From contig NC_045147.1 of the NCBI RefSeq assembly GCF_008831285.2, positions 21,158,981 through 21,222,980 of the forward strand: a stretch of 64,000 bases of DNA, in the 5' to 3' direction. Under the pieces are notes generated by a model. That model saw only the letters and a program-made list of their open reading frames with translations, was not told the DNA's origin and searched no databases. The translations under genes and the position numbers were made by a program. Positions 7,148 through 55,863 of this stretch are shown in pieces. Every line of letters starts with the position of its first letter. Positions within the stretch are counted from its first letter, which is position 1. Source of the DNA: Nymphaea colorata. Its lineage: Eukaryota > Streptophyta > Magnoliopsida > Nymphaeales > Nymphaeaceae.

Positions 7148-8340
7148 CTCTCTGAGACACCTGAAGCCCAACAAAAGCACAGAATCTACTTTACCATGCC
7201 ATGCACAAGTAAATGAAAAGTATCTCAGTATCCAAGAGAAATATGAACAAAATTTGCAACTTTTCTAGAATCCCAAGCATTTTTAGAGACTTGAAAATTT
7301 GACCGGGTAGGAAGTAGGGAGAAGAAAAGGAGCTGTGTTTTCACCAAAGCAATTTGATTAGCGATTGAAGAGGTGATAGCACAATGAAATTTACTGAAAC
7401 CACAAATGCAACGATTGAGATTCTCGAAAAAAAATCAGAAAATAGAAAAGAAATAAAATTTGTATAATCCAACTTTTGATATTCCGCAGGGGAAAACGCA
7501 GATAGACCTACTGCACGCGAAAGCTCGCTTATGGGAAACTCGTCTAACGACTTCGATTTCACAGATTGATGCCAAAAATTCGCAGAATAACCCTCTAGTT
7601 TCCTAAGAGAAACAAAGACAGGAAATAAGAGAAAACATGATGCTGGAGCGGAAGGACATCGGATTCCAACACTCCACCAACATAGAGAGAGAGATAGAGA
7701 GAGAGAGAGAAAGAGCAGTTACCGGTACAGACAACAAATTGCTCCCAAACGAGTTAGGTTCCAGCTGGAAGCTTCAGGAAGAACGGGATTGGAGATGGAG
7801 CTCTGGTGATGGGCAATACCTTTTTGGTAAATATAGCATCGGATGGAGGAGGAAGACTGAGGAGAGGATCGACATTCCGGTCGTCGTCGGGAAGCGACGA
7901 CCATGCATCCATCTCCTCCACTCGACGTACGCAAAGTGTTTTCTCTCTCTTCCAAAATTCCAAAATGAAGACGGAAAAGGCTGCATCAGAAAGCAATGAT
8001 AATGGCGATCCGATGCGACGTGCAGTGGAGACAACCATCGATCGGGTATTTACCTCCTTCCTTTCTCAGGCATCAATTTCCGATCCCCCCAAGCAGAGTA
8101 TTTCAGTCGACCTCGTTATGAATTGATTCCTTTTACCGGCCGACGTGGGGCTTCATGTTTCATACGCTTATTATTTGACAAAATATCTTATAAGTTCTTT
8201 TTACCTTAATTATTTGTACACGTTGTTTATATATTTTTCAGACGAATATAGATACGGTACTTTTAACTCTCTATTCAGGCTGATGGTACTTTTAATCTGT
8301 AGATATGTATATAAATATATATATATGTTTATATTTCATG
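7148..8340 (-). promoter_or_regulatory. Leader and promoter block of copy A with likely 5'-UTR intron
   Basis: This block recurs before most copies in the array. On the minus strand a donor GTAACT starts at 7722 and is followed at once by a CT-rich tract (GA repeats on the plus strand, 7687-7715). An acceptor CAG ends at 7161, thirteen bases before the start codon. That implies an intron of about 562 bp in the 5' UTR. Conservation decays beyond about 8340. The intron is inferred from splice signals and recurrence; no transcript is available. Confidence 0.6.
7754..7912 (-). CDS. Candidate upstream ORF in the leader of copy A (52 aa)
   Basis: This short frame starts MDAWSSLPDDDRNVD and ends before the inferred intron donor at 7722. 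The same start and first dozen codons appear, with small changes, in the leaders of copies B, C, D and G (M-D/G-A/T-W-S/P-SLP-x-DDRNVD). The downstream part drifts in frame between copies, so only the beginning looks constrained. It could be a translated uORF that limits kinase translation, or simply conserved leader DNA. No known domain is visible. Confidence 0.3.
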   Translation of the reverse strand: MDAWSSLPDDDRNVDPLLSLPPPSDAIFTKKVLPITRAPSPIPFFLKLPAGT

Positions 8341-8345
8341 TGTGA

Positions 8346-9578
8346 TAATATACTTTTAAGATCATAACAATTCCAACTGTCGTTACTATTATTTTCTCTA
8401 ATTAAATGTTTACACTTCAACACCGAACATTAAATAAAAAGAGAGGTCAACATCCTCTATATTGTGTCAATTAGTATATATACTGCCTAACGACCAAACT
8501 CCTCTAATTATTTGATAAGTTTTAGTTAGAAAAAAAAAGGCATAAATGAAGAAGCTCGTATACCACACAATTTTTTAGGAAGAGTGACTGTCAGTGTGTG
8601 ATGCCCAATCTTAATGGCAATGACAAGTATGAGGGCAGCGGATTGTGAAGAGTAAGATAGGGACAAATAATAAACTTTAAAGAAACAAAATATGTTTCAG
8701 TGTTTATACCTAACAGGCAATAAAGGAGGTGGTTGATTGGAGACAGGGGCTTATGCTGAGAAGCTATGAAACATAGTATGTTTCAGTAGTATACCTAATT
8801 CTTGAGAGATTGTTTAAAAGAAGTTAACAAACTAAGCAACTTGTTTGATCAATCAATGATATGTGCCGTGCATGACCACGAGTATATCAGATCGTGGTTA
8901 TTTTGTCGCTATAGGCTCAGCCCATGGTTGACTGAGGCCGGCGTGACTAAGCTTATCTCGAGGTAGGTTTTACTATAAGCCCGATTCGATCTTCAGCTAA
9001 TTCATTTGATACTTAGTCGTTAGTAAATTAAGATGAGTAAGATTTTGAGAAGGATATTTTACAATTCATGCCCACTTCTAGCGACCTGGCTAGGACGTTT
9101 AAATTACTATTGGACGTGAAGTCCCATCATCGAGAAATTAAAGTCCGGATCGTCGGATCGAGGAGATGTGCGGCTGAATGATGTTACGTAGGCAAGCTGC
9201 AGTGCTATCTGATTCCTGCCCAAATCTGTGGTTGTGATTTGATGACAACGTAGTTGACAGACATGTCATGTGGAAAATTTGTGCACATTTGTTCATATTA
9301 ATCAACCAAGATTTTTTTTTCTTATGTTTCAACTTTTCTACGTTCTGTTTCATTTATTCTTTAAAAGCTTTCTATGCGTGACAAAAACTGTGATAGTACT
9401 TAAAAAAGAAAAACAAAAACAGAAGTTCATTAACATTTTCTGTTGTTAATTAAGTCGACTCACGACCAAGCTCCACTGATGACGACCTCGCTGTTTCACC
9501 TTCCGGAGTGCTGAGCTAATTAATTTTTCCGTCTTCACAACACGAGTATATGCGAGTACAGTATACCAGATCGCTCGA
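8346..9578. other. 3' flank of copy B
   Basis: The interval holds the downstream region of copy B on the minus strand. About 8350-9470 is similar to 18140-19070 and, more weakly, to 35120-35880 and 44390-44660, so it is part of the repeating unit. From 8901 onward it is nearly identical to 20222 onward (see the duplicated tract). No other gene was found. Confidence 0.6.
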
Positions 9579-11955
9579 CTACATGCTCCGTGAATCCATG
9601 GTGGCCTGCTCAGCATAAGTCGAACTGCTTCTATCATCATCAGTATGCCAAACCATGGAAGACAGGGACACCTCTTCATCATCACCATCCACGGTCATGG
9701 AAGGACCGGCAGCCAATCCCTCACCCTTCTTCTCCTCTTCTCCGCTGATCTGCAAAAAGAGGGCAAGCTCCAAACTACTTACCACATTCGCCATAGACGG
9801 ACGGTCTGCACTCTGCTCTGCCAAGCACCTCTCTGCGGTTTCTGCAAACTTGTGGAGGCACTCGAGTGCTATCTTTCCCTCTAGAAATGGGTCGATGATC
9901 CGCTCGGTTCTTCCCAATCTCATAGAGCGCAACGCCCAATCGGCTAGACCGATCTCTTCCATGTGACGTGACATGTCGATCACCGGTCGAGCACACAAAG
10001 TCTCCAGCAGAACCACTCCAAACGAGTAAACATCTGATTTCTCGGTCAGCCTGTGCAAGCGAAAGTATTCTGGATCAAAGTAGCCGAAGGTGCCCTTCAC
10101 CCCTGTGCTCACATGGCTGCAATCCAATGAGGACCCCATCCTAGAGAGGCCGAAGTCGGAAACCTTGGCCACCCAATTCTCATCCAAGAGTATGTTTGTG
10201 GTTTTTACATCCCTATGTATAAGCGTATAAGTGGCTCCGGCATGAAGATAATGAAGCCCCTTAGCGGCACCAATGCATATCTCAAGTCTCTGCCTCCAAG
10301 ATAAAGGCGGGTGGTTAGTGCCATAGAGGTGTTGACGCAGGGTGCCGTGAGCCATGTGGTTATAGACAAGTATCATCTCAGAGTTGTCATCACAGTAACC
10401 GATGAGAGAAACCAGGTGGCGATGGCGGAGCTTAGAGAGCATCTCGATTTCGTTCTTGAATTCACGCAATCCCTGCTCCGCTAGTTGGTTCCCACGCTTG
10501 ATGGCAACTTTGGTGCCGCCATCTATTTCGCCCATGTAGACCTTGCCAAAGCCACCACGCCCAAGGAGGAGAGCATCGTCAAAATTGTTGGTGGCTGCTG
10601 TCATCTCAGAGAACCTGAAGTGCCGGCAATAAGCATTAGAGGCGTTGCTCTGAGCGACCTGGCCCTTCTCTGCTGGAAATAGAGTCGATTTCTCCTTTTT
10701 CCCTTGTGAATAAGGCGATAACGGGACCCACGTAGACGCACTACCATCACTCCCTTTGTCCCTCTTCTTCCGCCGGGCTCTGCACAACAGGCAGCAGGTG
10801 CAAGCGCCGGCAACAAGCGCGGCAGCTATGCCTCCCACGGCGCCTGCAATCACGAGGCTGTGACGACCAACGGGCGGAGAACTATTCTTAGGTGCTGGCG
10901 CCCACGGGAGGTCTGGATTTGGTCCAGCAAGGTTACCAGATGAGTCATTGACCTTGAAGACTTCAAGCCCATTAAGAATTGCATCTGCGTGATTGGGTCC
11001 GATCTCAGCATCTGGATGGAGCGTAATCGACATGTCGCTCTGTTCACTTCCCTCTAAAGGCACTTCTATGATATAGTCCCTGTACACAGCCACACCTGTC
11101 AAAATTCTAGTGTTGACTTTCTTAGATGCATAGTCAAGCACATCAAATTTAAGATCTGCCGTCATGTTGTTCACATATATGTCGAACACCCTCTGGTTCA
11201 CGTTGTTGATCTTTGATTGTATCTCACAGAAATGAAGCCTAACCCAGTAGCGAAATCCGTTGTCTATAGCAATATTCCACTGGAGGTTATAGTTCTTGTC
11301 AACCGATGCATTAGGCCCCATTGATCGAGCAGTGCCATACACGTCTGTTGGTGCAATATAATCTGGGAGAGCATGAGAATACTGTATGCTTATATTTGGA
11401 TCACGGTTGTAGGAAACTCCAAAAGCGGCACCAAAGACATATGGAGTATCATCATACCATGTCCGGAAGAGGAGGCCGGAATCAGAGGTGGGAGAGACGT
11501 AAGCTCCGCCCACATTCAGCCGAACGACGGTTTGCAAAGCCTCGGAATGTTGTATGCGAAATATTTGGTCGGTTTGGCCAACGGTGGAAGAAGGGTTGAA
11601 GGCGAAGGAACGGAAAAGTTCTGGCGAAGACACGACCTCTATGCCATTGATGAAGGCGAACGAATCAGGGGTGCTTTGTGAGGGAGTGAAGGTGAGGGCG
11701 AGGGAGCCAGAGGAGGGGACAGTGACGAAAAACTCACGCATGATGTAGGCTTGTGTGAGGGCTAAAGCGGTGATGGTGGGATTGAAGTTGCTGAGCAGAG
11801 TGTAAGGCCCAGTTGTAACAGAAAAGAAGGCATTTTTAGGGTCTCGGCCATTGTAGACAGCAGGGAAGAAGTGGAGCCGAACGAAATGACGACCTTCAGG
11901 AAGTGCAGTAAAATTGTAAGAGGAAGCAGAAGTGAAGATGCGAGCTGTTTGGTAG
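8901..11955. repeat. Donor copy of a 3.05 kb near-identical tract
   Basis: Bases 8901-11955 match 20222-23277 almost perfectly. I see about five differences, all in the non-coding first 500 bases (for example C/T at 8907, a one-base poly-T change and a T/C near 9357). The encoded proteins are identical throughout. This locus looks native because its left flank (8820-8900) continues in the same order as the related flank at 35580-35700. At the other copy the tract starts abruptly inside a copia fragment. Confidence 0.9.
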
Positions 11956-12150
11956 GGAACAACAAGAGGGAAGAAAGCAAGGTCGGCGTGGGAAGCTCGG
12001 GCAGAGAAAGAAGATTGTAAATTTGAGAGACCAAAGTGGTTGATGGACTCGTCGGTCCATCTACGGTTATCGCCTATCGGCATCAACATCCTCATAATCG
12101 GAGGAACCGCCACAATTGAGGAGAGGCAGCCAACAAGTTGATTTCTTCAT
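9579..12150 (-). pseudogene. CrRLK1L receptor kinase copy B, signal peptide lost and frameshifted
   Basis: From codon 50 or so onward this is a complete receptor kinase: malectin-like ectodomain, membrane span, kinase with GRGGFGKVY, VAIKRG, IHRDVK and SDFG, and the MDSRSM tail. That part equals copy D residue for residue. The beginning is broken. The ATG at 12150 is followed by MKKSTCWLPL and then jumps straight to LNCG, an in-frame loss of 27 codons that removes the hydrophobic core of the signal peptide. About 15 codons later an extra 7 bases shift the frame into stops, so translation from this ATG gives 27 residues. The long frame resumes without an ATG until 12095. A product started there would lack a signal peptide. 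I call it a probable pseudogene, although the rest has stayed open. Confidence 0.85.
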
Positions 12151-12945
12151 CCTCCCCGACACACCTGAAACCCAAGAAAAGCACAGAATCTACTTACCAT
12201 GCCCATGTAAATTTTCAAGAAGCACTTTGATTTGCAAGTGAAGAGGCGACGGTAGCACCTGCAATCAAATTTACTGAAACCACAAATGCAGAGCCTGGGA
12301 TTCTCAAAAATTCAGAAAAAAGAAAAATACGAAAATTTGTATCGTCCGGCTTTTGATATTCCGCCATGGAAAAGACAGATTGACCATGTGCACACGGGAG
12401 AGAGCTCCTGAAAAACTCATCTAGCAGCTTAGGGCCGTAGAGTTTACGCGGATAATGACATAGTTCACAGAACAGAACTCCTTAGTTGCCAGAGAATGAG
12501 AGAAACAAGAAACAGGCAAGAAGTGAAAACAAGATACTGGAAGCATCGGATTCTACCGTGCCACCACCATCGAGAGAGAGGGAGAGAGAGAGAGAAAGAG
12601 AGAGAGTTACCAGACACCAAATTGCTCCGAAACTAGTTAGATTCCAGCCAAAAGCTTCATCTAGTCACAGGAAAAACGAGTGAAGTCAGGATCGGATTGG
12701 AGGAGGTGGAGCTTTGGGTGTGGGCGATCCCTTTTGGACCTTAACGCTGGAAATAGGAGTCCACCGGAGAGAATCAACATTCCGGTCGTCGTGGGGAAGC
12801 GATGGCCATGTATCCATCTTCCCCACTCGAGGTGCGCCATCTCTCTCACAATTCCAATATGGTGACAGAAGAGGCTGCATCAGAAAGCGATGATAATGGC
12901 GATCCGATGTGACGTGCAGTGGAGACAACCATTGACCGGGTACAA
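12151..12945 (-). promoter_or_regulatory. Leader block of copy B
   Basis: It is similar to the leaders of D and K (23505-24360, 48165-49150). It contains the GA tract (about 12571-12607) next to a TTACCAG donor region on the minus strand, and the uORF-like start MDTWPSLPHDDRNVD near 12815. It ends at about 12945, where sequence like the 3' flank of gene A begins. Confidence 0.55.
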
Positions 12946-14096
12946 AATCAAGCATGTCTTATACATTAATTCTCTGTATTGAAGCAATACCAAAAGCAAT
13001 AAGCAATAAAAAGGTTCTCACTTCTATTTTCGGGAATCCATGAGAAGCCATCCTTGTTGCCACCCTCAGGCAAACGACCACAGAGATAATTTGACCAAAA
13101 TTTCCGCTCATTTTCTCATCTCAGCTATCGATCTTGATCTCTTATTATGGCAATGTAATGCCAGTTAAAAGAGGTGGATAGTCGTGATGAAAATGAATAT
13201 GATATATCTAATTACCCATCAGGCGTTTGACTGCCCTTCATCTAAGACTTTTTAGGATTTGAGAACTGTAGTTTTAAGATCAGACACTCCCATTTGCGAT
13301 CTTAAATACGACTTCTTCTCAATGCAAAAAGGTAAAATACAAATTTCAGATATGAACCTAAGGTCCTTAGTTTGACGAATCATGAATATTATGAGTGGAA
13401 TTTTTACTGCATCAGCACAAACATGTCACATTAGATCTATATCAGAAAGCATTAGATATTAGATCTATACTAAGATCCTTAGTATGACCCCTCGAAGAAC
13501 ACAACTCATTGGCAGCAGAAACATTCCGGTAACATAACTTTGTTAACTTATTTTGCTGCTTCTTAAAAGAACTCAGAGAAGCAAAAGAAACGCGTCTTAA
13601 AGGATGGTAAACAAGAACGGAAGCAGAGTCTGTGAAAAAGCAGACAAGCAGACCATATTATCCTAATACAAGCTGACCATTTCAGAACACAATTGAGCAT
13701 TGTCATGTAACAAACAATAAAGGGAAGAGGTACAAATACTGAGCTATATTAGCAGTAGGCCGCATTATTGGTTATAGGCGGAGGTGGCATATGGAGGAAA
13801 AAGACAGCAGAAGGGCGTCTGTTTTATTTCCTCCTCCAGCTGAATTCACGGTAGTATACATTAATGCAACAGCGAAAAGGTCCACTGGAAAAGGCTTGTG
13901 AGGCAAATTAAGCCATAAACAGGGCCACCAAGGCCCGTTGCAGCTCCTCTGTAACTCCCCTTACTTGTTGGCTGCACAAACTGGAAACTTGAAGCTTCAA
14001 AATTTCCTTCCCCGTAGCAAATGGAAACGAGTATGTTCGTCTAATTTCCAATATAACTAGTAGAAGAAAAACATATATAATACCAAGAATCCAAGA
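12946..14096. repeat. 3' flank of gene C, shortened copy of 2205-4444
   Basis: This stretch matches the DNA downstream of gene A in two blocks, with about 1.15 kb missing between them (join near 13480). It should include the 3' UTR of gene C on the minus strand. With gene C and its leader it forms a second copy of the roughly 6 kb unit around gene A. Confidence 0.7.
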
Positions 14097-16796
14097 TTAC
14101 CGCCCTTTAGGATTCATGATCTGGGAGAAAACTGCACTTGGGTGCATCTGCTCTGAACCCATGCTGGTGGAGCTCCCACCTTCGAAGCTTGTGCTGCTGT
14201 TAAGAGTATCAGGAGTCGGCCAATTAATGGCGTCATCAGATCGCTTCCCCTTGGCAGAAAGCGGTGCCTCCTGATCATCCAAGTCGCCAACAAAACCAAC
14301 GACCACACCCTTCTCGTCTGCCTCCTCTGCGCTGCTCTGCAAGCTGAGAGCAAACTCTAAGTTCCAGAGCACATTGGTCATGGCGGGACGATCTGCTCCT
14401 TCGTCAGCCAAGCACTTCTCTGCTGTCTCAGCAAACTTGCGCAGGCTCTCCGCTGCGATCTTCCCACTTAGAAAGGGATCAACGATCTGTTCTATCACGC
14501 CTTTTCTCATGCAGCGGAGCGCCCATTCCGCCAGGCAGACCTCCATGGTGGGGCGCGACCTGTCGAGCGCAGGGCGAGCTGAGAGAACCTCAAACAGAAC
14601 CACCCCGAAAGAATAGACGTCAGATTTCTCGGTGAGCCGCTGCAGGCGGTGGTACTCAGGGTCGAGATACCCGAAGGTGCCCTTCACACCTGTGCTCACA
14701 TGGGAACGATCCATCTCCGAGCCCATCTTCGAGAGGCCAAAATCAGAGATCTTTGCCACCCAATTGCCGTCGAGGAGAATGTTGGCGGACTTCACGTCTC
14801 TGTGTATAAGGGTGTGCTTGGCTCCGGTGTGGAGATGGTGCAGCCCCTTGGCCGCACCGATGCAGATCTCGAGCCTTTGTCTCCAAGACAACGGTGAGGC
14901 TTTTCTGCCGTAGAGGTGCTCACGCAGATTGCCACGAGCCATGTACTCGTAAACCAAAATCATCTCCGAGCTGTCCTCGCAGTAGCCGATCAGGGGGACC
15001 AGGTGGCGGTGGCGGAGCTTCGAGAGCATCTCGATTTCGTTGTGGAATTCTTGAGCGCCTTGCTGCGAGAGCTCGCTCCCTCTTTTTACGGCGACTTCAT
15101 TGCCACCATCAATAACGCCCTTGTAGACCTTACCGAAACCGCCGGCCCCAAGAAGGAGAGACTCGCTGAAGTTGTCGGTGGCCTCAACGATCTCTGAGAA
15201 CCTGAAGTGCCGGCAATAACCACTAGAGGCGTTGCTTAGAGCGCCCAGGCTCTTCTCTGCTGAAGATGCAGTCGATTTCCCGTTTTCCCCTTGTGCATAA
15301 GGAGATAGCAGGACCCACGTCGACCCACTACCACCACTCCCTTTTTCCTTCTTCTTCCTCTGGCACCCGCACAACAGGCAGCAGATGCAAGCGCCGACAA
15401 CAAGCGCGGCAGCTATGCCGCCCACGGCGCCTGCAATCTCGTGGCTGTGACCAGCACCACCATGACGACCAATGGGAGAACTATTCTCCGGTGCAGGCGC
15501 TGGCGGCAGGAGGTCAGGATTTGGTCCGGCAAGGTTACCAGATGAGTCATTGACCTTGAACACTTCAAGCCCATTAAGGATTGCATCTCCGTAATACGGT
15601 TGAACATCAACGTCTGGATGGAGCTCAATCCTCACATCGCTTTGCTTGCCACTCGACCGAGGCTGTATTACCATGTAATCTCTATACACTGCCACGCCAG
15701 TATAAATATCAGCTTGGACATTTTTCTTCGCACTGAAAATCACATCGAATCCATGATCCGCAGTCATATCATTCACGTACACATTGAATACCCTTTGGTT
15801 CTCTTGAAACACCTCAGACTGAATCTCACAAAAATGAAGTCTAATCAAGTAGCGGAATCCATTATCGACAGTAATAGACCAAGTGAGGTTGTAGTTTTGG
15901 TTGACAGAGGCATTAGGACCCATAGACCGAGCAGTGCCATACACGTCTCGTGGAGCAATATACTCCGGGACAGCCTTTGAGTACTGGATACTGACGTTGG
16001 GATCACGGGAGTAGGTAACTCCCAAACCAGCAGCGAAGATGTATGAAAGGTCATCGTACCAGGTTCGAGAGAGGGCAGAATCAGAGGTGGGGGAGACGTA
16101 AGCCCCTCCTACGTTTAACCGAACGATAGTTTGCAGAGCATCAGAATCACGTATGGGGTATATTTGGGTGGTTGGAACAGTGGATGCACCTAAAGGGAAC
16201 AATTCCTTCTTCGAAGACACAATCTCTATTCCATTGATAAAGGCGAACGAATCGGAGGTGTTTGGTGAGGGAGTAAATGTGAGGGTGAGGTAGCCAGAGG
16301 AGGAGACAGTGATGAAGAACTCACGTAAGATGTAGTTTTGTGAGAGGGCTGAAGCGGTGATGGCGGGGCTGAAGTTGCTGAGCAGAGTGTAACGCCCAGT
16401 TGTGACAGAAAAGAAGGCATTCTTAGTGTCTCGGTCATTGTAGACAGCAGGGAAGAAGTGGAGCCGAACAAAATGACGACCTTCAGGAAGTGCAGTGAAG
16501 TTGTAAGAAGAAGCAGAAGTGAAGATGCGAGCTGTTTTGTAGGGAACAACAGAAGGGAGTTCAGTGCTAGAAGTTTGGGCAGCAAAAGAAGATTGTAAAT
16601 TTGAGAGACCAAAGTGGGTGGTGGAGTCATTGGTCCATGGACGTTTATCGTTGTCAACATCGTTAGAGGAAGCGCCACAGTTGAGAAGGATACTCGCGGG
16701 TTTGAAGAAAGGTGTGGAGCTGACAAATGAAGAAAAAAGCATCAAATGGAAGACAGGTAGCAGAAGCAGAGGCAGCCAGCAAGTTGATTCCTTCAT
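14097..16796 (-). CDS. FERONIA-type CrRLK1L receptor kinase, copy C (899 aa)
   Basis: This is a close tandem duplicate of copy A with the same architecture: signal peptide, malectin-like ectodomain, membrane span followed by QRKKKEK, kinase and the tail SAVFSQIMNPKGR. Kinase motifs [28 protein letters not shown] and DPEY are all present. Most differences from A are in the first half of the ectodomain (for example a Lys-Lys insertion before ELF near residue 199), while the kinase is almost unchanged. An upstream ATG at 16940 is in frame, but a likely splice acceptor lies between it and the MKEST start, so I use 16796. It is expected to act at the plasma membrane in cell-wall or RALF signalling, by family. 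Confidence 0.93.
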   Translation of the reverse strand: MKESTCWLPLLLLPVFHLMLFSSFVSSTPFFKPASILLNCGASSNDVDNDKRPWTNDSTTHFGLSNLQSSFAAQTSSTELPSVVPYKTARIFTSASSYNFTALPEGRHFVRLHFFPAVYNDRDTKNAFFSVTTGRYTLLSNFSPAITASALSQNYILREFFITVSSSGYLTLTFTPSPNTSDSFAFINGIEIVSSKKELFPLGASTVPTTQIYPIRDSDALQTIVRLNVGGAYVSPTSDSALSRTWYDDLSYIFAAGLGVTYSRDPNVSIQYSKAVPEYIAPRDVYGTARSMGPNASVNQNYNLTWSITVDNGFRYLIRLHFCEIQSEVFQENQRVFNVYVNDMTADHGFDVIFSAKKNVQADIYTGVAVYRDYMVIQPRSSGKQSDVRIELHPDVDVQPYYGDAILNGLEVFKVNDSSGNLAGPNPDLLPPAPAPENSSPIGRHGGAGHSHEIAGAVGGIAAALVVGACICCLLCGCQRKKKEKGSGGSGSTWVLLSPYAQGENGKSTASSAEKSLGALSNASSGYCRHFRFSEIVEATDNFSESLLLGAGGFGKVYKGVIDGGNEVAVKRGSELSQQGAQEFHNEIEMLSKLRHRHLVPLIGYCEDSSEMILVYEYMARGNLREHLYGRKASPLSWRQRLEICIGAAKGLHHLHTGAKHTLIHRDVKSANILLDGNWVAKISDFGLSKMGSEMDRSHVSTGVKGTFGYLDPEYHRLQRLTEKSDVYSFGVVLFEVLSARPALDRSRPTMEVCLAEWALRCMRKGVIEQIVDPFLSGKIAAESLRKFAETAEKCLADEGADRPAMTNVLWNLEFALSLQSSAEEADEKGVVVGFVGDLDDQEAPLSAKGKRSDDAINWPTPDTLNSSTSFEGGSSTSMGSEQMHPSAVFSQIMNPKGR

Positions 16797-17365
16797 CTCC
16801 CTGAGGCACCTGAAGCCCAACAAAAACACAAAATCTACTTTACCATGCACATGTAAATGAATTTCTAAGTATCTCAGAGAAATATGCAGGGAGAAGACTG
16901 TTCCAGACAAAATTTGCAACTTTCCGAGAACCCCAAACATTTTTTGAGACTAGAAATATTGGCTTGAATATTTAACCCGGTCGAAAGTAGGGAGAAGGAA
17001 ATGACCTCTGTTTTCATTAAAGCAATTTGATTAGCGATTGAAGAGGTGACAGGAGCACCTGCAATCAAATTTACTGAAACCACAAATGCAAAGCAACGAT
17101 TGAAATTCTAAAAAAAAATCAGAAAATAGAAAAGAAATAAAATTTGTATAATCCGACTTTTGATATTCCGCCGGAAAAAACGCAGATAGAGCTACTGCAC
17201 GCGAGAGCTCGCTCCTGGGAAACTCGTCTAACGACTTGGATTTTACAGGATGACGCCAAAAATTTACAGAATAACTCTCCAGTTGCCCGAGAGAAACAAA
17301 GACGGGCAATAAGTGCCAACATGATGCTGGAGGGGAAGGACGTCGGATTCCAACACTCCACCAAC

Positions 17366-17424
<59 letters not shown>

Positions 17425-17880
17425 TTACCGGTACAGACAACAAATTGGTCCCAAACGAGTTAGGTTCCAGCCGGAAGCTTTATCCAGCTAAAGGAAGAAC
17501 GGGATTAGAGGAGATGGAGCTCTGGGGATGGGCGATACTTTTTTGGTAAATATAGCGTGGGAGGGAGGAGGAACACTCAGGAGTCCACCAGGAGAGGATG
17601 GGCATTCCGGTCGTCTTCCGGAAGCGACGACCATGCATCCATCTCCCCCACTCGTCATACCCAAAGTGTTTTCTCTCTCTTCCAAAATTCCAAAATGGAG
17701 ACAGAAAAGGCTGCATCAGAAAGCAATGATAATGGCGATCCGATGCGACGTGCACTGGAGACAGCCATCGACCTTCTTCCTGTCTCAGGCATCAATTTCT
17801 GATCCCCCGAAGAAGAGTATTTCAGTCGACCTGGTTATGAATTGATTCCTTTTACCGGCCGATGTGGGCTTCATGTTTCA
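16797..17880 (-). promoter_or_regulatory. Leader and promoter block of copy C
   Basis: It has the same organisation as the leader of A: an acceptor-like CAG just upstream of the ATG, a GTAACT donor next to a long GA/CT tract near 17425, then a conserved first-exon-like region with a start MDAWSSLPEDDRN at 17642. Homology to other copies fades beyond about 18400. Confidence 0.55.
17369..17421. repeat. (GA)n microsatellite, about 52 bp
   Basis: This is the longest of a series of GA tracts at the same place in each leader (others near 7687, 12571, 34349, 43612 and 48786). On the gene strand it is a CT run directly after the inferred 5'-UTR intron donor. Length differs strongly between copies. 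Confidence 0.95.
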
Positions 17881-19197
17881 TACGCTTATTATTTTTCAAA
17901 ATATCTTATACTTTCTTTTTACCTTATAATTATTTTCATAGGTTGTTTATCTATTTTTCAGACAAAATATACATAAGGTTTCTTGCTTATTCCCTTGATT
18001 GCCAGAATCATTATATTGCTTGACCAATTCGATTGTATTTCCAATTTTTCCAACAAGGGCTTTGAATTTTAACTCTCAATTTAGGCTGATGGTACTTTTA
18101 ATCTGTAGCAACTAGTATTTGGGCGGTTTTTAAATAATTTTTGATTTATCAAATATATACATATTCATGTGTGATAATATAATATACTTTTAAGATCATA
18201 ACAACTCCAACTGTTGTTACTATTATTTTTTCTAATCAAATATTTACACTGCAACACCGAACATTAAATAAAAAAGAGAGGTCAACACCCTCTATATTGT
18301 TTCAATTAGTATATATATTTTATGCATGTGAAAACTTAGTTGTAGTCTAACGACCAAACTCCTCTAATTATTTGATAAGTTTTGCTAGAAAAAAAAAATA
18401 GAAATAAATGAAGAAGATCGTATACCACACAATTTTTTAGGGAGAGTGACTTTCAATGTGTGATGCCCAATCTTGATGGCAATGACAAGTATGTGGGCAG
18501 CGGATTATAAACAAGAAGATAGCGACAAATAATAAACTTTAAAGAAACAAAACATGTTTCAGTATTATACCTAACAGGCAATAAAGGAGGTGGTTGATTG
18601 GAGACAGAGGCTTATGATGAGAAGCTATGAAACATAATATGTTTCAGTATTATACTTAATTCTTGATAGATTGATAGCAAGTTTTACTATAAGCCCGGTT
18701 CGATGTTAAGCTAATTCATTTGATACTTAGTCGTTAATAAATTAAGATCAATAAGATTTTGAGAAGGTTATTGTACAATTCAGGCCCACTTCTAATTCAG
18801 GTCCCATCATCGAGAAGCTGCAGTGCTATCTGTTGCTGCCCAAATCTGTGGTTGTGATTTGATGACAATGTAGTTGACAGACATATCTTGTGGAAAATTT
18901 GTGCACATTTGTTCATATTAAACAACCAAGATTTTTTTTTCTAGTGTTTCAACTTTTCTACGTACTGTTTCATTTACTCTTTAAAAGCTTTCCATGCGAG
19001 ACAAAAACTGTGAAAGTACTTAAAAATTAAAAGAACAAAAACAGAAGATCATTAACATTTTCTATTGTTAATGAAGTCGACTCACGACCAAGCTCCATTG
19101 ATGACGACCTCGCTGTTTCACTTTCCGCAGTGCTGAGGTAATTTTTCCGTCTTCACAGCATGAGTAGATGAGAGTACAGTACACCATCTGGCACGAC
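17881..19197. other. 3' flank of the interrupted kinase copy
   Basis: The region is homologous to the 3' flank of copy B (8346-9578), in the order expected downstream of a kinase gene on the minus strand, with small deletions (for example near 18670 and 18800). No independent gene is visible. Confidence 0.6.
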
Positions 19198-19698
19198 TAC
19201 ATGCTCCGTGAATCCATGGTGGCCTGTTCAGCAAAAGTCGAACTGCTTCTTTCATCATCAGTATGCCAAACCATGGAAGAGATAGACACCTCTTCATCAT
19301 CACCATCGATGGTTATTGAAGGACCGGGTGCCAATCCCTCCCCCTTCTTCTCCTCTGATCTGCAAAAAGAGGGCAAGCTCCAAACTACTTACCACATTCG
19401 CCATGGAGGGACGGTCTGCACTCTGCTCTGCCAAGCACCTTTCTGCGGTCTCTGCGAACTTGAGGAGGCACTCGAGTGCTATCTTTCCTTCTAGAAATGG
19501 GTCGATGATCCGCTCGGTTCTTCCCAATCTCATAGAGCGCAACGCCCAATCGGCTAGACCGATCTCTTCCATGGGACGTGACTTGTCGATCGCCGGTCGA
19601 GCACACAAAATCTCTAGCAGAACCACTCCAAATGAGTAAACATCTGATTTCTCGATCAGCCTGTGGAAGCGAAAGTATTCGGGATCAAAGTAGCCGAT
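19198..19698 (-). pseudogene. C-terminal remnant of a CrRLK1L kinase cut by a copia LTR
   Basis: The remnant begins at [13 protein letters not shown] in the activation segment and runs through the kinase C-lobe ([21 protein letters not shown]) to the MDSRSM-type tail. Upstream, the reading frame stops at 19698, where an LTR (TGTTA...) starts immediately after the codons for GYFD. An 8-base deletion near 19350 also throws the tail out of frame. It is the 3' end of the gene that stood here before the retrotransposon insertion. Its 5' part appears to survive at the start of copy D. Confidence 0.88.
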
Positions 19699-19998
19699 GT
19701 TAAAAAACCATAAGAAGAACAAGGAGAAACAACAAGAATTTACGTGGTTTGTTACTGAGGCCTACGTCCACGGAGGAAGAAGAAGACTTTTTTTTTTTTT
19801 TTTTTTATTTCACTGTTCTATTTACAATTAAAGAGAGAAGAGAGATTTATACACTTTGATTTTGGCGATAACCAAGAGAACGGTTATGCAAAGAATTATG
19901 GAGGATTTCTTTCCCTTATCTGATTAATCGTAACGGCAGGATACTCTTGTTATGCTTGCCAATCTTGATGACAATCTTCCTCCATAAATCTCGTAACA
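19699..19998 (-). mobile_element. Copia 3' LTR, about 300 bp
   Basis: On the minus strand the LTR starts TGTTACGAG at 19998 and ends TTTTTTAACA at 19699. It is preceded by a polypurine tract (GAGGGGGAGA, about 20000-20009) and by the end of a copia RNase H frame. Its end lies directly in the kinase codons of the remnant. The matching 5' half of the element and second target duplication are absent because the element is cut at about 20221. Confidence 0.85.
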
Positions 19999-20009
19999 AT
20001 CTCCCCCTC

Positions 20010-20226
20010 AAGTTGGAGGACAGATATCAATCTGTCTCAACTTGTTTACAATTTCACTTTTGACATGACATGTTTCAATAGTTTCATCTTGATTTTTTTC
20101 TTTAATGAAGTGACAGTCAATTTCGATGTGTTTAGTCCTTTCATGAAAAACTGGATTTGCCCCGATATAGATTGCAGCCATATTGTCGCATATAAGCTTT
20201 ATAGGCTCTAGTACATCAATATTTTG
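20010..20226 (-). pseudogene. Truncated copia RNase H end
   Basis: The minus strand encodes [18 protein letters not shown], then [17 protein letters not shown], the well-known C-terminal signature of Ty1/copia RNase H, and ends in a stop just before the polypurine tract. Everything upstream (integrase, reverse transcriptase) is missing. The frame is cut at about 20221-20226, where the duplicated tract from the copy B locus begins. Confidence 0.88.
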
Positions 20227-23200
20227 TTGCTATAGGCTCAGCCCATGGTTGACTGAGGCCGGCGTGACTAAGCTTATCTCGAGGTAGGTTTTACTATAAG
20301 CCCGATTCGATCTTCAGCTAATTCATTTGGTACTTAGTCGTTAGTAAATTAAGATGAGTAAGATTTTGAGAAGGATATTTTACAATTCATGCCCACTTCT
20401 AGCGACCTGGCTAGGACGTTTAAATTACTATTGGACGTGAAGTCCCATCATCGAGAAATTAAAGTCCGGATCGTCGGATCGAGGAGATGTGCGGCTGAAT
20501 GATGTTACGTAGACAAGCTGCAGTGCTATCTGATTCCTGCCCAAATCTGTGGTTGTGATTTGATGACAACGTAGTTGACAGACATGTCATGTGGAAAATT
20601 TGTGCACATTTGTTCATATTAATCAACCAAGATTTTTTTTTTCTTATGTTTCAACTTTTCTACGTTCTGTTTCATTTACTCTTTAAAAGCTTTCTATGCG
20701 TGACAAAAACTGTGATAGTACTTAAAAAAGAAAAACAAAAACAGAAGTTCATTAACATTTTCTGTTGTTAATTAAGTCGACTCACGACCAAGCTCCACTG
20801 ATGACGACCTCGCTGTTTCACCTTCCGGAGTGCTGAGCTAATTAATTTTTCCGTCTTCACAACACGAGTATATGCGAGTACAGTATACCAGATCGCTCGA
20901 CTACATGCTCCGTGAATCCATGGTGGCCTGCTCAGCATAAGTCGAACTGCTTCTATCATCATCAGTATGCCAAACCATGGAAGACAGGGACACCTCTTCA
21001 TCATCACCATCCACGGTCATGGAAGGACCGGCAGCCAATCCCTCACCCTTCTTCTCCTCTTCTCCGCTGATCTGCAAAAAGAGGGCAAGCTCCAAACTAC
21101 TTACCACATTCGCCATAGACGGACGGTCTGCACTCTGCTCTGCCAAGCACCTCTCTGCGGTTTCTGCAAACTTGTGGAGGCACTCGAGTGCTATCTTTCC
21201 CTCTAGAAATGGGTCGATGATCCGCTCGGTTCTTCCCAATCTCATAGAGCGCAACGCCCAATCGGCTAGACCGATCTCTTCCATGTGACGTGACATGTCG
21301 ATCACCGGTCGAGCACACAAAGTCTCCAGCAGAACCACTCCAAACGAGTAAACATCTGATTTCTCGGTCAGCCTGTGCAAGCGAAAGTATTCTGGATCAA
21401 AGTAGCCGAAGGTGCCCTTCACCCCTGTGCTCACATGGCTGCAATCCAATGAGGACCCCATCCTAGAGAGGCCGAAGTCGGAAACCTTGGCCACCCAATT
21501 CTCATCCAAGAGTATGTTTGTGGTTTTTACATCCCTATGTATAAGCGTATAAGTGGCTCCGGCATGAAGATAATGAAGCCCCTTAGCGGCACCAATGCAT
21601 ATCTCAAGTCTCTGCCTCCAAGATAAAGGCGGGTGGTTAGTGCCATAGAGGTGTTGACGCAGGGTGCCGTGAGCCATGTGGTTATAGACAAGTATCATCT
21701 CAGAGTTGTCATCACAGTAACCGATGAGAGAAACCAGGTGGCGATGGCGGAGCTTAGAGAGCATCTCGATTTCGTTCTTGAATTCACGCAATCCCTGCTC
21801 CGCTAGTTGGTTCCCACGCTTGATGGCAACTTTGGTGCCGCCATCTATTTCGCCCATGTAGACCTTGCCAAAGCCACCACGCCCAAGGAGGAGAGCATCG
21901 TCAAAATTGTTGGTGGCTGCTGTCATCTCAGAGAACCTGAAGTGCCGGCAATAAGCATTAGAGGCGTTGCTCTGAGCGACCTGGCCCTTCTCTGCTGGAA
22001 ATAGAGTCGATTTCTCCTTTTTCCCTTGTGAATAAGGCGATAACGGGACCCACGTAGACGCACTACCATCACTCCCTTTGTCCCTCTTCTTCCGCCGGGC
22101 TCTGCACAACAGGCAGCAGGTGCAAGCGCCGGCAACAAGCGCGGCAGCTATGCCTCCCACGGCGCCTGCAATCACGAGGCTGTGACGACCAACGGGCGGA
22201 GAACTATTCTTAGGTGCTGGCGCCCACGGGAGGTCTGGATTTGGTCCAGCAAGGTTACCAGATGAGTCATTGACCTTGAAGACTTCAAGCCCATTAAGAA
22301 TTGCATCTGCGTGATTGGGTCCGATCTCAGCATCTGGATGGAGCGTAATCGACATGTCGCTCTGTTCACTTCCCTCTAAAGGCACTTCTATGATATAGTC
22401 CCTGTACACAGCCACACCTGTCAAAATTCTAGTGTTGACTTTCTTAGATGCATAGTCAAGCACATCAAATTTAAGATCTGCCGTCATGTTGTTCACATAT
22501 ATGTCGAACACCCTCTGGTTCACGTTGTTGATCTTTGATTGTATCTCACAGAAATGAAGCCTAACCCAGTAGCGAAATCCGTTGTCTATAGCAATATTCC
22601 ACTGGAGGTTATAGTTCTTGTCAACCGATGCATTAGGCCCCATTGATCGAGCAGTGCCATACACGTCTGTTGGTGCAATATAATCTGGGAGAGCATGAGA
22701 ATACTGTATGCTTATATTTGGATCACGGTTGTAGGAAACTCCAAAAGCGGCACCAAAGACATATGGAGTATCATCATACCATGTCCGGAAGAGGAGGCCG
22801 GAATCAGAGGTGGGAGAGACGTAAGCTCCGCCCACATTCAGCCGAACGACGGTTTGCAAAGCCTCGGAATGTTGTATGCGAAATATTTGGTCGGTTTGGC
22901 CAACGGTGGAAGAAGGGTTGAAGGCGAAGGAACGGAAAAGTTCTGGCGAAGACACGACCTCTATGCCATTGATGAAGGCGAACGAATCAGGGGTGCTTTG
23001 TGAGGGAGTGAAGGTGAGGGCGAGGGAGCCAGAGGAGGGGACAGTGACGAAAAACTCACGCATGATGTAGGCTTGTGTGAGGGCTAAAGCGGTGATGGTG
23101 GGATTGAAGTTGCTGAGCAGAGTGTAAGGCCCAGTTGTAACAGAAAAGAAGGCATTTTTAGGGTCTCGGCCATTGTAGACAGCAGGGAAGAAGTGGAGCC

Positions 23201-23277
23201 GAACGAAATGACGACCTTCAGGAAGTGCAGTAAAATTGTAAGAGGAAGCAGAAGTGAAGATGCGAGCTGTTTGGTAA
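20222..23277. repeat. Recipient copy of the 3.05 kb near-identical tract
   Basis: This is nearly identical to 8901-11955. The left end sits in a copia RNase H frame and shares only about 8 bases (TATTTTGT) with the donor. The right end lies in the ectodomain around codon 76 of copy D. Beyond it the sequence stops resembling B and resembles K instead (NSEIPSVPYQTA). This is the signature of ectopic copying into this locus. Confidence 0.9.
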
Positions 23278-23504
23278 GGAACAGAAGGGATTTCAGAGTT
23301 AAAAGCTTGGGCAACTAAAGAAGATTGTAAATTTGAGAGACCAAAGTGGGTGGTGGAGTCGTTGGTCCATCGACGCTTATCTTCATCAACATCGTCAGAG
23401 GAAGCGCCACAGTTGAGAAAGATACTCACCACAAAAGAAGAAAAAAACAACAAATGGAAGATAGGTAGCAGAAGGAGAGGCAGCCAGAAAGTTGATTCCT
23501 TCAT
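20901..23504 (-). CDS. CrRLK1L receptor kinase copy D, conversion-repaired (867 aa)
   Basis: This is an intact receptor kinase. Seen: signal peptide about 1-27 (shortened, running FSSFVVSIFLNCG without the usual TPFFKPV), malectin-like ectodomain to about 410, membrane span about 445-467, basic RARRKKRDK, and kinase with GRGGFGKVY (541-549), K562, HRD 656-658 and DFG 676-678. The tail ends MDSRSM instead of the FERONIA tail. Residues from about 77 on are identical to copy B, while the first 76 resemble copy K. The gene is thus a mosaic, and unlike B it keeps a usable signal peptide. The ATG at 23504 follows the same acceptor-like CAG seen in the other copies. Predicted plasma-membrane receptor. 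Confidence 0.9.
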   Translation of the reverse strand: MKESTFWLPLLLLPIFHLLFFSSFVVSIFLNCGASSDDVDEDKRRWTNDSTTHFGLSNLQSSLVAQAFNSEIPSVPYQTARIFTSASSYNFTALPEGRHFVRLHFFPAVYNGRDPKNAFFSVTTGPYTLLSNFNPTITALALTQAYIMREFFVTVPSSGSLALTFTPSQSTPDSFAFINGIEVVSSPELFRSFAFNPSSTVGQTDQIFRIQHSEALQTVVRLNVGGAYVSPTSDSGLLFRTWYDDTPYVFGAAFGVSYNRDPNISIQYSHALPDYIAPTDVYGTARSMGPNASVDKNYNLQWNIAIDNGFRYWVRLHFCEIQSKINNVNQRVFDIYVNNMTADLKFDVLDYASKKVNTRILTGVAVYRDYIIEVPLEGSEQSDMSITLHPDAEIGPNHADAILNGLEVFKVNDSSGNLAGPNPDLPWAPAPKNSSPPVGRHSLVIAGAVGGIAAALVAGACTCCLLCRARRKKRDKGSDGSASTWVPLSPYSQGKKEKSTLFPAEKGQVAQSNASNAYCRHFRFSEMTAATNNFDDALLLGRGGFGKVYMGEIDGGTKVAIKRGNQLAEQGLREFKNEIEMLSKLRHRHLVSLIGYCDDNSEMILVYNHMAHGTLRQHLYGTNHPPLSWRQRLEICIGAAKGLHYLHAGATYTLIHRDVKTTNILLDENWVAKVSDFGLSRMGSSLDCSHVSTGVKGTFGYFDPEYFRLHRLTEKSDVYSFGVVLLETLCARPVIDMSRHMEEIGLADWALRSMRLGRTERIIDPFLEGKIALECLHKFAETAERCLAEQSADRPSMANVVSSLELALFLQISGEEEKKGEGLAAGPSMTVDGDDEEVSLSSMVWHTDDDRSSSTYAEQATMDSRSM

Positions 23505-24360
23505 CTCCCTGAGACACCTGAAACCCAACAAAAGTACAGAATCTACTTACCATGCACATGTACATTTTCAAGAAGCACTTTGATTTGCAAGTGAAGAGGC
23601 GACAGTAGCACCTGCAATCAAATTTACTGAAACCACAAATGCAGCGCCTTGAATTCTCGAAAATTCAGAAAAAAGAAAAGAACGAAAATTTGTATCGTCC
23701 GGCTTTTGATATTCCGCCATGGAAAACACAGATTGACCAACACGAGAGAGAGCTCCTGAAAACCTTGTCTAGCAGCTTGGGGCCGTAGACTTTACGCGGA
23801 TAATGACATAGTTCACAGAACATAACTCCCTAGTTGCCAGAGAATGAGAGAAGGCAAGAAGTGAAAACAAGATACTGGAATGCTTCTAACGTGCCACCAC
23901 CATCCAAAGAGAGTGAGAGAGAGAGAGTTACCAGTACTGACACCAAACTGTTCCGAAACGAGTTAGATTCCAGCCAGAAGCTACATACAGTTACAGGAAA
24001 AACGGGTGAAGCCAGGATAGGATTGGAGGAGGTGGAGCTTTGGGGCTGGGCAATCCCTTTCGGTTAACGCTGGAAAGAGGAGTCCACCAGAGAGAATCAA
24101 CATTCCGGTCGTCGTCGGGAAGCGATGACCATGTACCCATCTTCCTCACTCGACGTGCGCAAAGCTTTTTCTTCTCTCAAAATTCCAATATGGAGACAGA
24201 AAAGGAGGCATCTGAAAGCGATTGCAATGGCCGTCCGATGCGACGCACAGTGGAGACCACCATCGGGTATTTACCATCGTCCTTTCTCAGGCCTTAATTT
24301 CTGATCCCCCAAAGTAGAGTATTTCAATCGATCTGGTTATGACTTGATTCCATTTACCGG
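23505..24360 (-). promoter_or_regulatory. Leader block of copy D
   Basis: It is related to the leaders of B and K. It has a short GA tract (about 23913-23928), a TTACCAG donor region on the gene strand, and a uORF-like start MGTWSSLPDDDRNVD near 24138. Confidence 0.5.
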
Positions 24361-25028
24361 TCGATGTAGAGTCGTCACATTTGATTTGATTATTATTTTT
24401 CAAAATACTTTTGAAACTTTTTTTGGTTTACTTTGTAATTATTGTTACATGTCGTTTATCTATTTTTCAAATGAATATAAATGTTTTTTTTTTTTTTGTG
24501 TATTCGCTTGATTTACAGGATCATTAGTTTGCGTAGCCAATTGGATTTTATTTCCAATTTTTCCAACAAGGGTTTTCAGTTTTAACTCTCTATTTAGGCT
24601 GACGGTGCTTTTAATAGTAGTCTAACCATTTACTGCTACTCGTAAATGCATTTTTATATAAGTGAATAAGAGTTTGATCCCGGAGATGTGTGGGTGGATC
24701 ACCTTAATTATGTTCACACGGTACACTGCTGCCAGGATTGCTGGTGCCAAATGTGTCAAACTCATCTTGTTAGATACGGCATACAATATTCATGGTTCGA
24801 GCTTTTTCAGTGGTTAAATAATTAATATTATTAAGATTTTGAAGAAGTGGTCTGGGTCGTCGAGTCCGGGAGATGTGTGGTTGGATCAATGGAGTTAGAC
24901 AAACGAAAGTGCTACCTCATTGCTGCCCAAATGTGTGGCTGTGATTTGAAGATACACTGGTGTAGTAATATACGTGGTAGAAAATATCTTGTAGAAAACT
25001 GTCTTTTTCAAAATATTAGAAGAGAACT
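24361..25028. other. Intergenic, decayed promoter-distal repeat
   Basis: About 24360-24640 is similar to DNA beyond other leaders (17880-18110, 30080-30320, 49150-49440). The rest is AT-rich, with no gene seen. Confidence 0.45.
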
Positions 25029-25593
25029 ACATACCTGTGTAGGCACTCCGGCATGATTTTTCCCACCAAGAACCAACCGGTGATCAGCTGGGTTCTTCCC
25101 TCTCTCATAGAGTGCAACGCCCACTCAGCCAGGCTGATCTCTTCCATGGGACGTGACGGCAACTTTGGTGCCTGTAGACCTTGCCAAAGCCACCACAGCC
25201 AAGGAGGCGGGCATCGTCAAAACTGTTGGTGGCTGCCATTATCTCAGAGAGCGAAAAATGCCGACAATGAGTGTTGGGGGAGCGATTGAGTGTCGCCTCA
25301 CTGCATCTAGAATTGTTGGTAGCTGTTGGAAATGCAAACCATTTCCTCTTCTGATCTTAAACACCTCAAGCCCATTAAGAATTGGATCAGTGTAATACGG
25401 TGGACTATCAATATTTGGATGGAGCTCAATTCGCAAATCACTTTGTTAGTCGTTCGTCAGAGGCATTATTATCATGAAATCTTCATACACTGGCACACCA
25501 ATGTAAAGAGGAGCATGGACTTCTCTTTTTGCATAGAAAAGCACACATCTAGCCCAGAGTCTGCAGTCATGTTGTTCAAATACACGTTGAAAG
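25029..25593 (-). pseudogene. CrRLK1L remnant E (H-like) with large internal deletions
   Basis: The segments follow the order of copy H but with gaps. A kinase C-lobe piece ending near MEEISLAEW jumps near 25157 to the N-lobe start, losing about 535 bp including the catalytic loop. A second gap near 25345 removes the membrane span and juxtamembrane part. It then continues into the ectodomain to about 25593, with further point changes such as an in-frame stop near 25448. Homology ends abruptly at 25593. It is non-functional. Confidence 0.85.
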
Positions 25594-26050
25594 AGAGAAA
25601 CTGAGATCGACAACATGAATACAAGATGTAGAAAACAAGGAGTGAAAAGACAAATCATTGGTAGCTTGAATGATGGTCAAGCAAGATTCACATCGAACAT
25701 GTGATCAGAGGGTAGTCAACAGCCAAATCAGCCTCCATTTCATCAAGCTGCGGACTTGAACTGGCCTGAGAATAAGACCAGCGGTAGGAAACAAATGCAG
25801 CCTTGTACTAGAGGGTTGAAGGAGGAAGCGGAGGGGAACAGAGTCGGGGTGGCAACGCCTAGCAGAAGCAAGGCAAGTTGTCTGTTCATCTCGTTGAGCA
25901 GCCTTATAATCGAATGCAGATATCTACTTCACTTCACCTGTATTGAGACACTTGTTGCCTTTCCAGGGATGGAAAAAAAGAAAAGGAAAAAGACAATCGT
26001 GGGGTGGATATCATAGTTTTCCATCCTTTCCTCTTCGACGATCTAGAGAG
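25594..26050. other. Unclassified, possible retroelement-linked DNA
   Basis: About 25690-25756 resembles 51535-51592, the sequence just left of the complete copia element, in the same orientation (shared words such as atcagcctccattt and ggacttgaac). A frame at 25756-26016 has no recognisable domain. No gene is called. Confidence 0.35.
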
Positions 26051-26448: not shown

Positions 26449-28963
26449 TCATTTCTGAATCACAGGTGAACAATCATCATCAGGTACGCAGGTATTTGCT
26501 AGCTCCTCATTTGCCTCCTCAGCTTGCAGCTGCAGACGGAGAGCCAACTCCAAATTCATGAGCACGTTGGCCATGGAAGGACGGTCTTCTCTCCGATCCG
26601 CCGAGCACTTCTCTGCTATTTGTACAAACTTGTGCAGACATTCTGGTGCAATTTTCCCTTTCAGGAACGGATCGATAATCTCGTTGAGGCTTCCATTCCT
26701 CCGGTGCTGCGCTGCCCACGCAGCCAGGTTCATCTCTGTCGAAGGGCACGACTCATCAAGTGCAGGTCGAGCGCAGAGAACCTCAAGTAGCACAACCCCA
26801 AATAAGTAAACGTCTGATTTTTCAGTGAGCCGCTTTGTCCGAAAGTACTCCGGATCAAAGTAGCCGAAGGTGCCCTTCACCAGCGTGCTCACATGGCTGC
26901 AATCCAGCGATGGGGTCATTTTAGAAATACCGAAATCAGAGACCTTGGCCACCCAATTCTCATCAAGAAGTATGTTGGCGGTCTTCACGTCTCTGTGTAT
27001 AAGGATGTGCTTGGCTCCGGTGTGGAGATGGTGCAGCCCCTTGGCCGCACCGATGCAGATCTCGAGCCTTTGTCTCCAAGACAATGGTGAGGCTTTTCTG
27101 CCGTAGAGGTGTTCACGCAGATTGCCACGAGCCATGTACTCGTAAACCAGAATCATAACTGTCCTCGCAGTAGCCGATCAGGGAGACCAGGTGGCGGTGG
27201 CGGAGTTTCGAGAGCATCTCGATTTCGTTGTGGAATTCTTGAGCCCCTTGCTGCGAGAGCTCGCTCCCCCTTTTTACGGCGACTACGATGCCACCGTCAA
27301 TAACGCCCTCGTAGACCTTGCCGTGACCACCGGCCCCAAGAAGGAGAGAATCGCTGAAGTTGTCGGTGGCCTCCACGATCTCTGAGAACCTGAAGTGCCG
27401 GCAATAACCATTAGAGGCGTTTCTTAGAGCGCCCAGGCTCTTCTCTGCTGAAAATGCAGTCGATTTCCCGTTTTTCCCTTCTGCATAAAGAGATAGCGGG
27501 ACCCACGTCGACCCACTACCACCACTCCCTTTCTCCTTCTTCTTCCTCTGGCGCCCGCACAACAGGCAGCAGATGCAAGCGCCGACGACAAGCGCGGCAG
27601 CTATGCCGCCCTTGGCGCCTGCAATCTCGTGGCTGTGACCACCACTATGACGACCAACGGAAGAACTATTCTCCTGTGCAGGCGATGGCGGCGGGAGGTC
27701 TTGATTTGGTCCGGCAAGGTTCCCTGAAGAGTCATTGATCTTGAACACTTCAAGCCCATTAAGAATTGCATCTGCTTAATACGGGTGAACATCAACATCT
27801 GGATGGAGCTCAATTCGCTTTGCTTGCCACTCGACGGAGGCACTATTACCATGTAATCTCTATACACTGCTACGCCAGTGTATGGAGGAGCTTGGACGTT
27901 TTCCTTCGCACTGTAAATCACATCGAATCCAGGATCCGCGGTCATGTTGTTCACGTACACATTGAATACCCTTTGGTTCTCTTTGAACACCGCAGACTGA
28001 ATCTCACAAAAATGAAGTCTAATCAAGTAGCGGAATCCATTATCGACAGGAATATACCAAGTGAGGTTGTAGTTCAGGTTGAGAGAGGTATTAGAACCCA
28101 TGGACCGAGCAGTACCATACAGGTCTGGTGGAGCAATATACTCCGGGACAGCCTTTGAGTACTGGATACTTACGTTGGGATCACGGGAGTAGGAAACTCC
28201 AAAACCAGCTCCAAAGATGTATTGAGAGTCATCGTGCCAGGTTCGAGAGAGGCCGGAATCAGAGGTGGGGGAGATGTAAGCCCCTCTTACGTTTAACCGA
28301 ACGACAGTTTGCTGAGCCTCAGAATCACGTATGAGGAATATTAGGTCCTTTGAAACAATATAGGCACCTGAAGGGAACAATTATGGCAATCTCTATGCCA
28401 TTGATGAAAGCCAACGAATCTGGGGTGCTTAGTGAAGGAGTGAAGGTGAGGGTGAGGGAGCCAGAGGAGGGGACAGTGACGAAGAACTCACGCATGATGT
28501 AGGCTTGTGAGAGGGCTAAAGCGGTGATGGCGGGGCTGAAGTTGTTGAGCAGATTGTAAAGCTCAGTTGTGACAGAAAAGAAGGCATTCTTAGGGTCTCG
28601 GCCATTGTAGACAGCAGGGAAAAAGTGGAGCCGAACAAAATGACGACCTTTAGAAAGTGTAGTAAAGTTGTAAGAGGAAGCAAAAGTGAAGATGCGAGCA
28701 GTTTGGTAGGGAACAACAGAAGGGAGTTCAGCGCTAGAAGTTTGGGCAGCGAAAGAAGATTGTAAATTTGAGGGACCAAAGTGGGTGGTGGAGTCGTTGG
28801 TCCATGGACGCTTATCGTCATCAACGCTGTCAGAGGAAGCGCCACAGTTGAGAAAGATACTCACGGGTTTGAAGAAAGGTGTGGAGCCGACAATAGAAGA
28901 AAGGAGCAACAAACAGAAGATAGATAGCATAAGCTGAGGCAGCGAGTAAGTTGATTCCTTCAT
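26449..28963 (-). pseudogene. CrRLK1L receptor kinase copy F, several frameshifts
   Basis: All parts of a receptor kinase are present in order but not in one frame. Breaks seen by comparison with copies A and G: about 8 bases lost near 28382 (after INGIEI), about 7 lost near 27814, a TAA in place of a tyrosine codon near 27776, and 5 lost near 27155 (after the N-lobe). The C-lobe (26449-27156) is of another origin: it reads [21 protein letters not shown] and ends [13 protein letters not shown], unlike either tail class. Copy F is therefore also a mosaic. The signal peptide (MKESTYSLPQLMLSIFCLLL) is intact. Confidence 0.9.
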
Positions 28964-42245: not shown

Positions 42246-42523
42246 TTCAAATGGGATATATTTTCCTAAGCGCACTGCAGAACTAGCACCTGAAGTTCTT
42301 CAGAATATGATGGAAAAAATGCCAGAAAAGCGATTCCAAAGCTGACATTTTCACAAAAACGATATTCACAAAAACGGAATAAAGGATGCTATATTCTCAT
42401 AAATGAACTAGAAAAAGTGCCAATCAACTCTTTTGCTCAGAGGCCTACTCAGGACCTAGGAAAAAAAAAAGGAAAAGAAAAGTGAACTGCGCCAAAGAAG
42501 AAAAATATGGCACGTGAAACCGT

Positions 42524-55725: not shown

Positions 55726-55863
55726 GAACTGACCTATCAAATGACTCAGAAAACTTTACCAAGTGTAAATTTCATTTAGCAAAGAGAGAAAGAAAGAGAG
55801 AGAGAGTTGATTGTTGGTGTATGGAACTTGATCCATACTAAACACTCATTTACAATACCGCGG

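Follow-up and report, generated by a model that had tools for sequence, protein, structure and literature searches.

The closest printed case that we found to the locus described here appears to be the OAK cluster of malectin-like receptor kinases in Arabidopsis thaliana, in which two neighbouring genes have a 2.7 kb fragment in common, identical in both and ascribed to recent gene conversion (PMC3136440). As at our locus, these are malectin-type receptor kinases in tandem whose promoter and coding sequences have different histories, although the OAK tract begins 13 bp ahead of the start and ends 60 bp into the kinase sequence, in genes with introns, and the passages that describe it mention neither a transposon-cut recipient nor a microhomology junction, both of which feature here (PMC3136440). 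A survey in rice, concerned likewise with non-reciprocal copying between paralogues and stressing the pseudogenes among them, recorded 377 conversions in 626 gene families and a frequency of same-chromosome conversion that drops with distance, but one-sided junctions into a transposon are not treated in its abstract (PMC2277409). In rice, too, foreign segments are known to be copied in by synthesis-dependent repair where a break adjoins a transposon: breaks left by transposon excision carry SDSA filler DNA, sometimes in combined repair patterns; these fillers measure 1–123 bp and accompany DNA transposons, whereas approximately 3 kb lies beside an LTR element in our case (PMC4423477). Among the literature matches listed, which comprise titles and the beginnings of abstracts with thin coverage of subscription journals, there was no transposon-cut receptor kinase patched from a paralogue. 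The process itself is of a known kind, and what is unusual is that a transposon-cut recipient, a leaderless donor and readable junctions occur together.

The window, by which we mean the whole stretch of 64,000 nt analysed (C10:21158981-21222980 of a 408 Mb genome), contains malectin receptor kinase genes in a head-to-tail row on the minus strand, seven of them open frames of 838-947 codons with Malectin_like and kinase domains, besides broken copies. Gene D, the subject of this analysis, is predicted from its domain architecture to encode a FERONIA-type (CrRLK1L) receptor kinase, both domains of this type being present (Pfam Malectin_like at 30-411, PK_Tyr_Ser-Thr at 540-804). Its top PDB matches are the FERONIA kinase (E = 1.4e-136) and the FERONIA ectodomain (E = 5.1e-110), the ANXUR ectodomains ranking after FERONIA in the ectodomain search, and its translation shows by eye a hydrophobic N terminus and a hydrophobic stretch ahead of ARRKKR. 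D is itself one member of a tandem array and a putative receptor. Elsewhere in the array, units A (3795-8258) and C (13486-17979) are 93.4% alike, gaps not counted, and since a B/D-type unit follows each, a two-gene block (A-B, C-D) has probably been duplicated. Further broken kinase copies, in several frames, lie at 25031-25631, 26515-28963 and 42506-43041.

The D locus is a mosaic with two sequence boundaries, the B flank retains its own order, and gene B lacks a signal-peptide segment. The features concerned are as follows.

8901-11954, minus strand: donor tract in gene B (base-by-base alignment, flank order)
9579-12150, minus strand: gene B, body open, signal-peptide segment deleted (ORF list, alignment of 5' ends)
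18067-19194, minus strand: 3' flank of the old gene D, collinear with the B 3' flank save for deletions (identity, flank comparison)
19195-19697, minus strand: 3' coding end of the old gene D, with the end of the kinase C-lobe, the C-terminal tail and a TAG stop at 19195-19197 (alignment, match ends)
19698-19998, minus strand: copia 3' LTR, TG at 19698 and CA at 19998 (element reads on the minus strand)
19999-20224, minus strand: 3' end of the copia internal region, cut off (translation, genomic relatives)
20220-20224, no strand: left junction of copia and donor sequence, TATT/TATTT microhomology (copia and B match limits)
20222-23276, minus strand: copied tract in D, near-identical to 8901-11954 (3050/3054 identical plus one indel)
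20901-23504, minus strand: gene D, FERONIA-like malectin receptor kinase of 867 codons, chimeric (ORF list, domains, translation)
23277-23565, minus strand: own 5' end of gene D, with signal peptide, start of the malectin domain and 5' leader (identity, tree)
23573-24615, minus strand: own upstream region of gene D (self-comparison, tree, identity)
45583-49430, minus strand: gene K, broken third member of the B/D/K group and reference for D's own ends (self-comparison, trees, alignment)

The preliminary description of this DNA had proposed that the 3' end of an older gene stops at a copia LTR, and the match limits agree: of the seven kinase matches other than D itself, six break off at query base 98 (19697) and one at base 96, while most LTR matches reaching the 19698 end begin within two bases of it, one weak match (76%) beginning 11 bases earlier. 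The insertion falls in a part of the D kinase domain that we take to be the activation segment. From the TG...CA ends of the LTR and the copia-type pol of its relatives, 19698-20224 can be classed as a fragment of a Ty1/copia LTR element; two genomic relatives of the copia end (L004 and L007) have RVT_2 upstream of the matching part, and L004 also has an SH3-like pol domain. The reading of 19999-20224 resembles what is presumably the end of RNase H, and of the element's opposite end nothing is left at the locus.

The remnant of the old gene together with its flank (18681-19697) is 92.9% like B, and its tail carries a single 8-bp frameshift deletion, which fits later decay. Changes unique to the old tail, called against B and K only, with no outgroup and with gapped codons dropped, number 20, of which 12 are synonymous and eight nonsynonymous, where 78% nonsynonymous would be expected (P = 0.0003). 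Hence, constraint probably acted on the old D during most of its existence, the copia hit coming late, and a recipient long dead before the insertion is not favoured. The kinship of the tail is not firm, since 13 sites unite D and B against K and six unite D and K against B, while the tree places the old D with K at 81/84.

At the left junction, 40 of the 50 candidate places for the junction query were scored, being D itself, B and 38 copia places. Copia similarity ends at query base 84-85 (20223-20224) in 32 of these 38, earlier in six and beyond in none, close to the cut at about 20221 given previously, and the B match begins at 20220. Four to five bases (TATT or TATTT) are therefore common to copia and donor, the number depending on which copia relative stands in for the lost sequence, and the approximately 8 bases of shared sequence claimed earlier must be rejected on these match limits. 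Among random junctions, at least four shared bases occur in 2.0% and at least five in 0.7% (three copia relatives, 40,000 draws each).

Between this junction and 23276 the locus is a near-perfect copy of 8901-11954, 11 kb away in gene B, as had been described for 20222-23277 and 8901-11955 with ends that are off by a few bases at most; of 3054 aligned bases, 3050 are identical (99.9%), with four substitutions and one 1-base indel, and beyond the right end D and B are 82.3% (23277-23565) and 89.8% (23573-24263) identical. All differences lie within 20228-20679 and there are none from 9358/20680 to 11954/23276, so that the coding part is identical at 2376 of 2376 bases and the non-coding part, a 678 bp 3' flank past the stop codon, holds all four substitutions. 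These substitutions are transitions throughout, one of them CG/TG, and the indel affects a homopolymer. In the self-comparison of the window the best pair among the matches listed is 20220-24263 with 8899-12932. Across six paralogues, the longest concordant run of B and D covers 682 of 753 variable columns, a length reached in none of 1000 permutations (mean 78.6), in a test that is liberal, 10 of 15 paralogue pairs having p <= 0.05; no other pair exceeds 83, the value for A and C. Such a tract of excess identity between less alike flanks is one mark of ectopic gene conversion, another being non-reciprocal transfer from an unchanged donor. A recent duplication of the whole unit can be rejected, because the flank stretches compared on both sides are only 82-93% like B.

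Smaller stretches of excess identity occur elsewhere in the array. The K sequence at 46906-47505 is 93-98% like B and D against 86-91% in adjoining tiles, which suggests another conversion patch. The kinase part of B and D at 21500-21650 is 96% like 31741-31888 of gene F over about 150 bases, with a longest concordant run of 20 where about seven are expected, and is likely to be another.

The right end of the tract, unlike the left, lies at an aligned homologous position, and beyond it gene D retains its own sequence. Here D is 95.3% identical to K, and a tree groups D with K at a support of 98/98, in keeping with the K-like 5' end reported in the preliminary description; however, this likeness is only partly special, since B is divergent, and many of the 34 sites (of 37 at which D matches just one of B and K) where D agrees with K reflect changes of B's own. 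The tree of the upstream region places B, D and K in one group, the order among them not being clear. The 867-codon frame is intact and open throughout, as had been stated, its codons 1-76 being D's own sequence and the remainder inside the copied tract. The donor is itself damaged: the segment coding for the signal peptide is found in D, K, A, C, E and F and absent from B, where the frame from the original start (12150) meets a stop after 27 codons and the longest ORF, of 838 codons from 12095, uses another frame without leader. The earlier notion of a gene restored by copying consequently holds for the copied tract and the open frame but not as plain restoration; because the donor has no signal-peptide segment, D, on this comparison, is a chimera of two damaged genes, joining its own leader and first 76 codons to the body of B.

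For the 3' part of the tract, the flanks support B as the older arrangement and D as derived, because to either side of 8901 the B sequence runs collinear with both the old D 3' flank and a further unit (35103-35760), with no copia at that point in the one or the other. There are two such witnesses, one of them the recipient's own remnant, and as both have deletions beside 8901 the collinearity concerns the two sides and not the exact base. Copying from D to B is rejected for this part, given that the flank of D is the one interrupted by copia. Within the B 3' flank, about 150 bases at 8813-8966 are missing in the old D and partly missing in the 35 kb unit.

Divergence of the non-coding part of the tract is 4/678, or 0.59% (95% interval 0.16-1.5%), about 8% of the divergence between the old D and B (7.4% in a pool that includes approximately 500 coding bases), a proportion based on only four substitutions. 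The absence of change in 2376 coding bases sets an upper bound of about 0.13%. Given the coding/non-coding ratio of 0.62 between A and C, the probability that all four substitutions would be non-coding is 0.0098, and for this reason the data are a poor fit to one copy of even age. A later, second exchange may have affected the coding part, in either direction; if so, neither the boundary on the right at 23277 nor the direction of copying in the coding part is proven, and the B-to-D direction claimed before thus stands for the 3' part and is conditional for the rest. A later exchange from D to B could explain how the leaderless B has stayed open.

Taken together, the interrupted older gene, the truncated copia element, the B tract and the own 5' end of the preliminary description survive the tests of alignment, match limits and flanks, and ectopic gene conversion, by one-sided homology copying and end joining, is the best explanation and in our judgement a probable one. 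A tract that is homologous at its right end and joined by microhomology at its left fits one-sided homology repair. Under this model, D would at the start have been an ordinary FERONIA-like malectin receptor kinase gene in the head-to-tail array, and copia would have inserted into its kinase domain. We infer that a later break in D or copia was repaired in a single event in which homology served at one end: the end on the 5' side, near 23277, would have invaded the paralogue B and copied approximately 3.05 kb of it, through the stop codon and 678 bp of 3' flank, before joining through the 4-5 bp of microhomology linked the new strand to the copia end that was left. The rest of copia and D's own middle would have been lost, the product being an open 867-codon gene that unites the leader and upstream region of D with the body of B and leaves the old tail as a scar.

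The same final structure, with a non-homologous left and an aligned homologous right junction, would result from two crossovers, if a break in copia were joined to the B 3' flank on the sister chromatid, giving a tandem duplication that spans B' to D', and the middle were then lost in an unequal homologous crossover of B' with D'. We regard this as unlikely, as it requires two events and a lost intermediate, and no near-identical second C-D block appears among the best window self-matches listed. An error of assembly or haplotype, by which B reads or a B allele were placed in the D locus, might be suspected from so long and almost perfect a tract with a fully identical coding part, but it is made less likely by a window with no N anywhere and by the character of the differences, since all-transition substitutions, one of them CG/TG, and a homopolymer indel are as in real mutation, although allelic differences would look alike. 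The left junction, moreover, lies with its microhomology inside the copia coding end, not at a repeat boundary common to both loci, and the joined product is an open frame; we consider such an error quite unlikely.

LTR-mediated template switching by microsimilarity has been described (PMC5408686), and this precedent lends some plausibility to an RNA route. Copia reverse transcriptase would, at TATT(T), have changed its template from copia RNA to the messenger RNA of B, and D would have been patched by the resulting chimeric cDNA, with the copia end and the homologous 5' end of D as its anchors. The copia element and the kinase genes share a strand, microhomology of 4-5 bp would serve such a switch, and as the body of B is one open frame the absence of introns is no argument against it. 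However, a B transcript extending at least 678 nt past the stop would be needed, the right side has no second copia end or LTR, and a homology step at 23277 would still be required, so that we hold this route to be highly improbable. If it were true, the retrotransposon that broke the gene would also have helped to mend it, from the leader of one damaged gene and the body of another.

As a rule, damaged genes in receptor arrays are written off as dead. With conversion and end joining as the preferred explanation, the D locus suggests that the parts of one complete receptor can be spread over two neighbours damaged in different ways, the one cut by a transposon and the other lacking its leader, and that such parts can be united by break repair with both junctions and a scar left readable. 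If reads confirm the arrangement, one-sided repair in an array of plant receptors would here have left a clean record in nature, datable relative to the array duplications from the four substitutions in the tract. A further, isolated kinase fragment in the window (55852-56082) is 96% like K, from which it lies about 9 kb away, and is 0.7 kb beyond an open frame (52475-55150) that belongs to a separate copia element.
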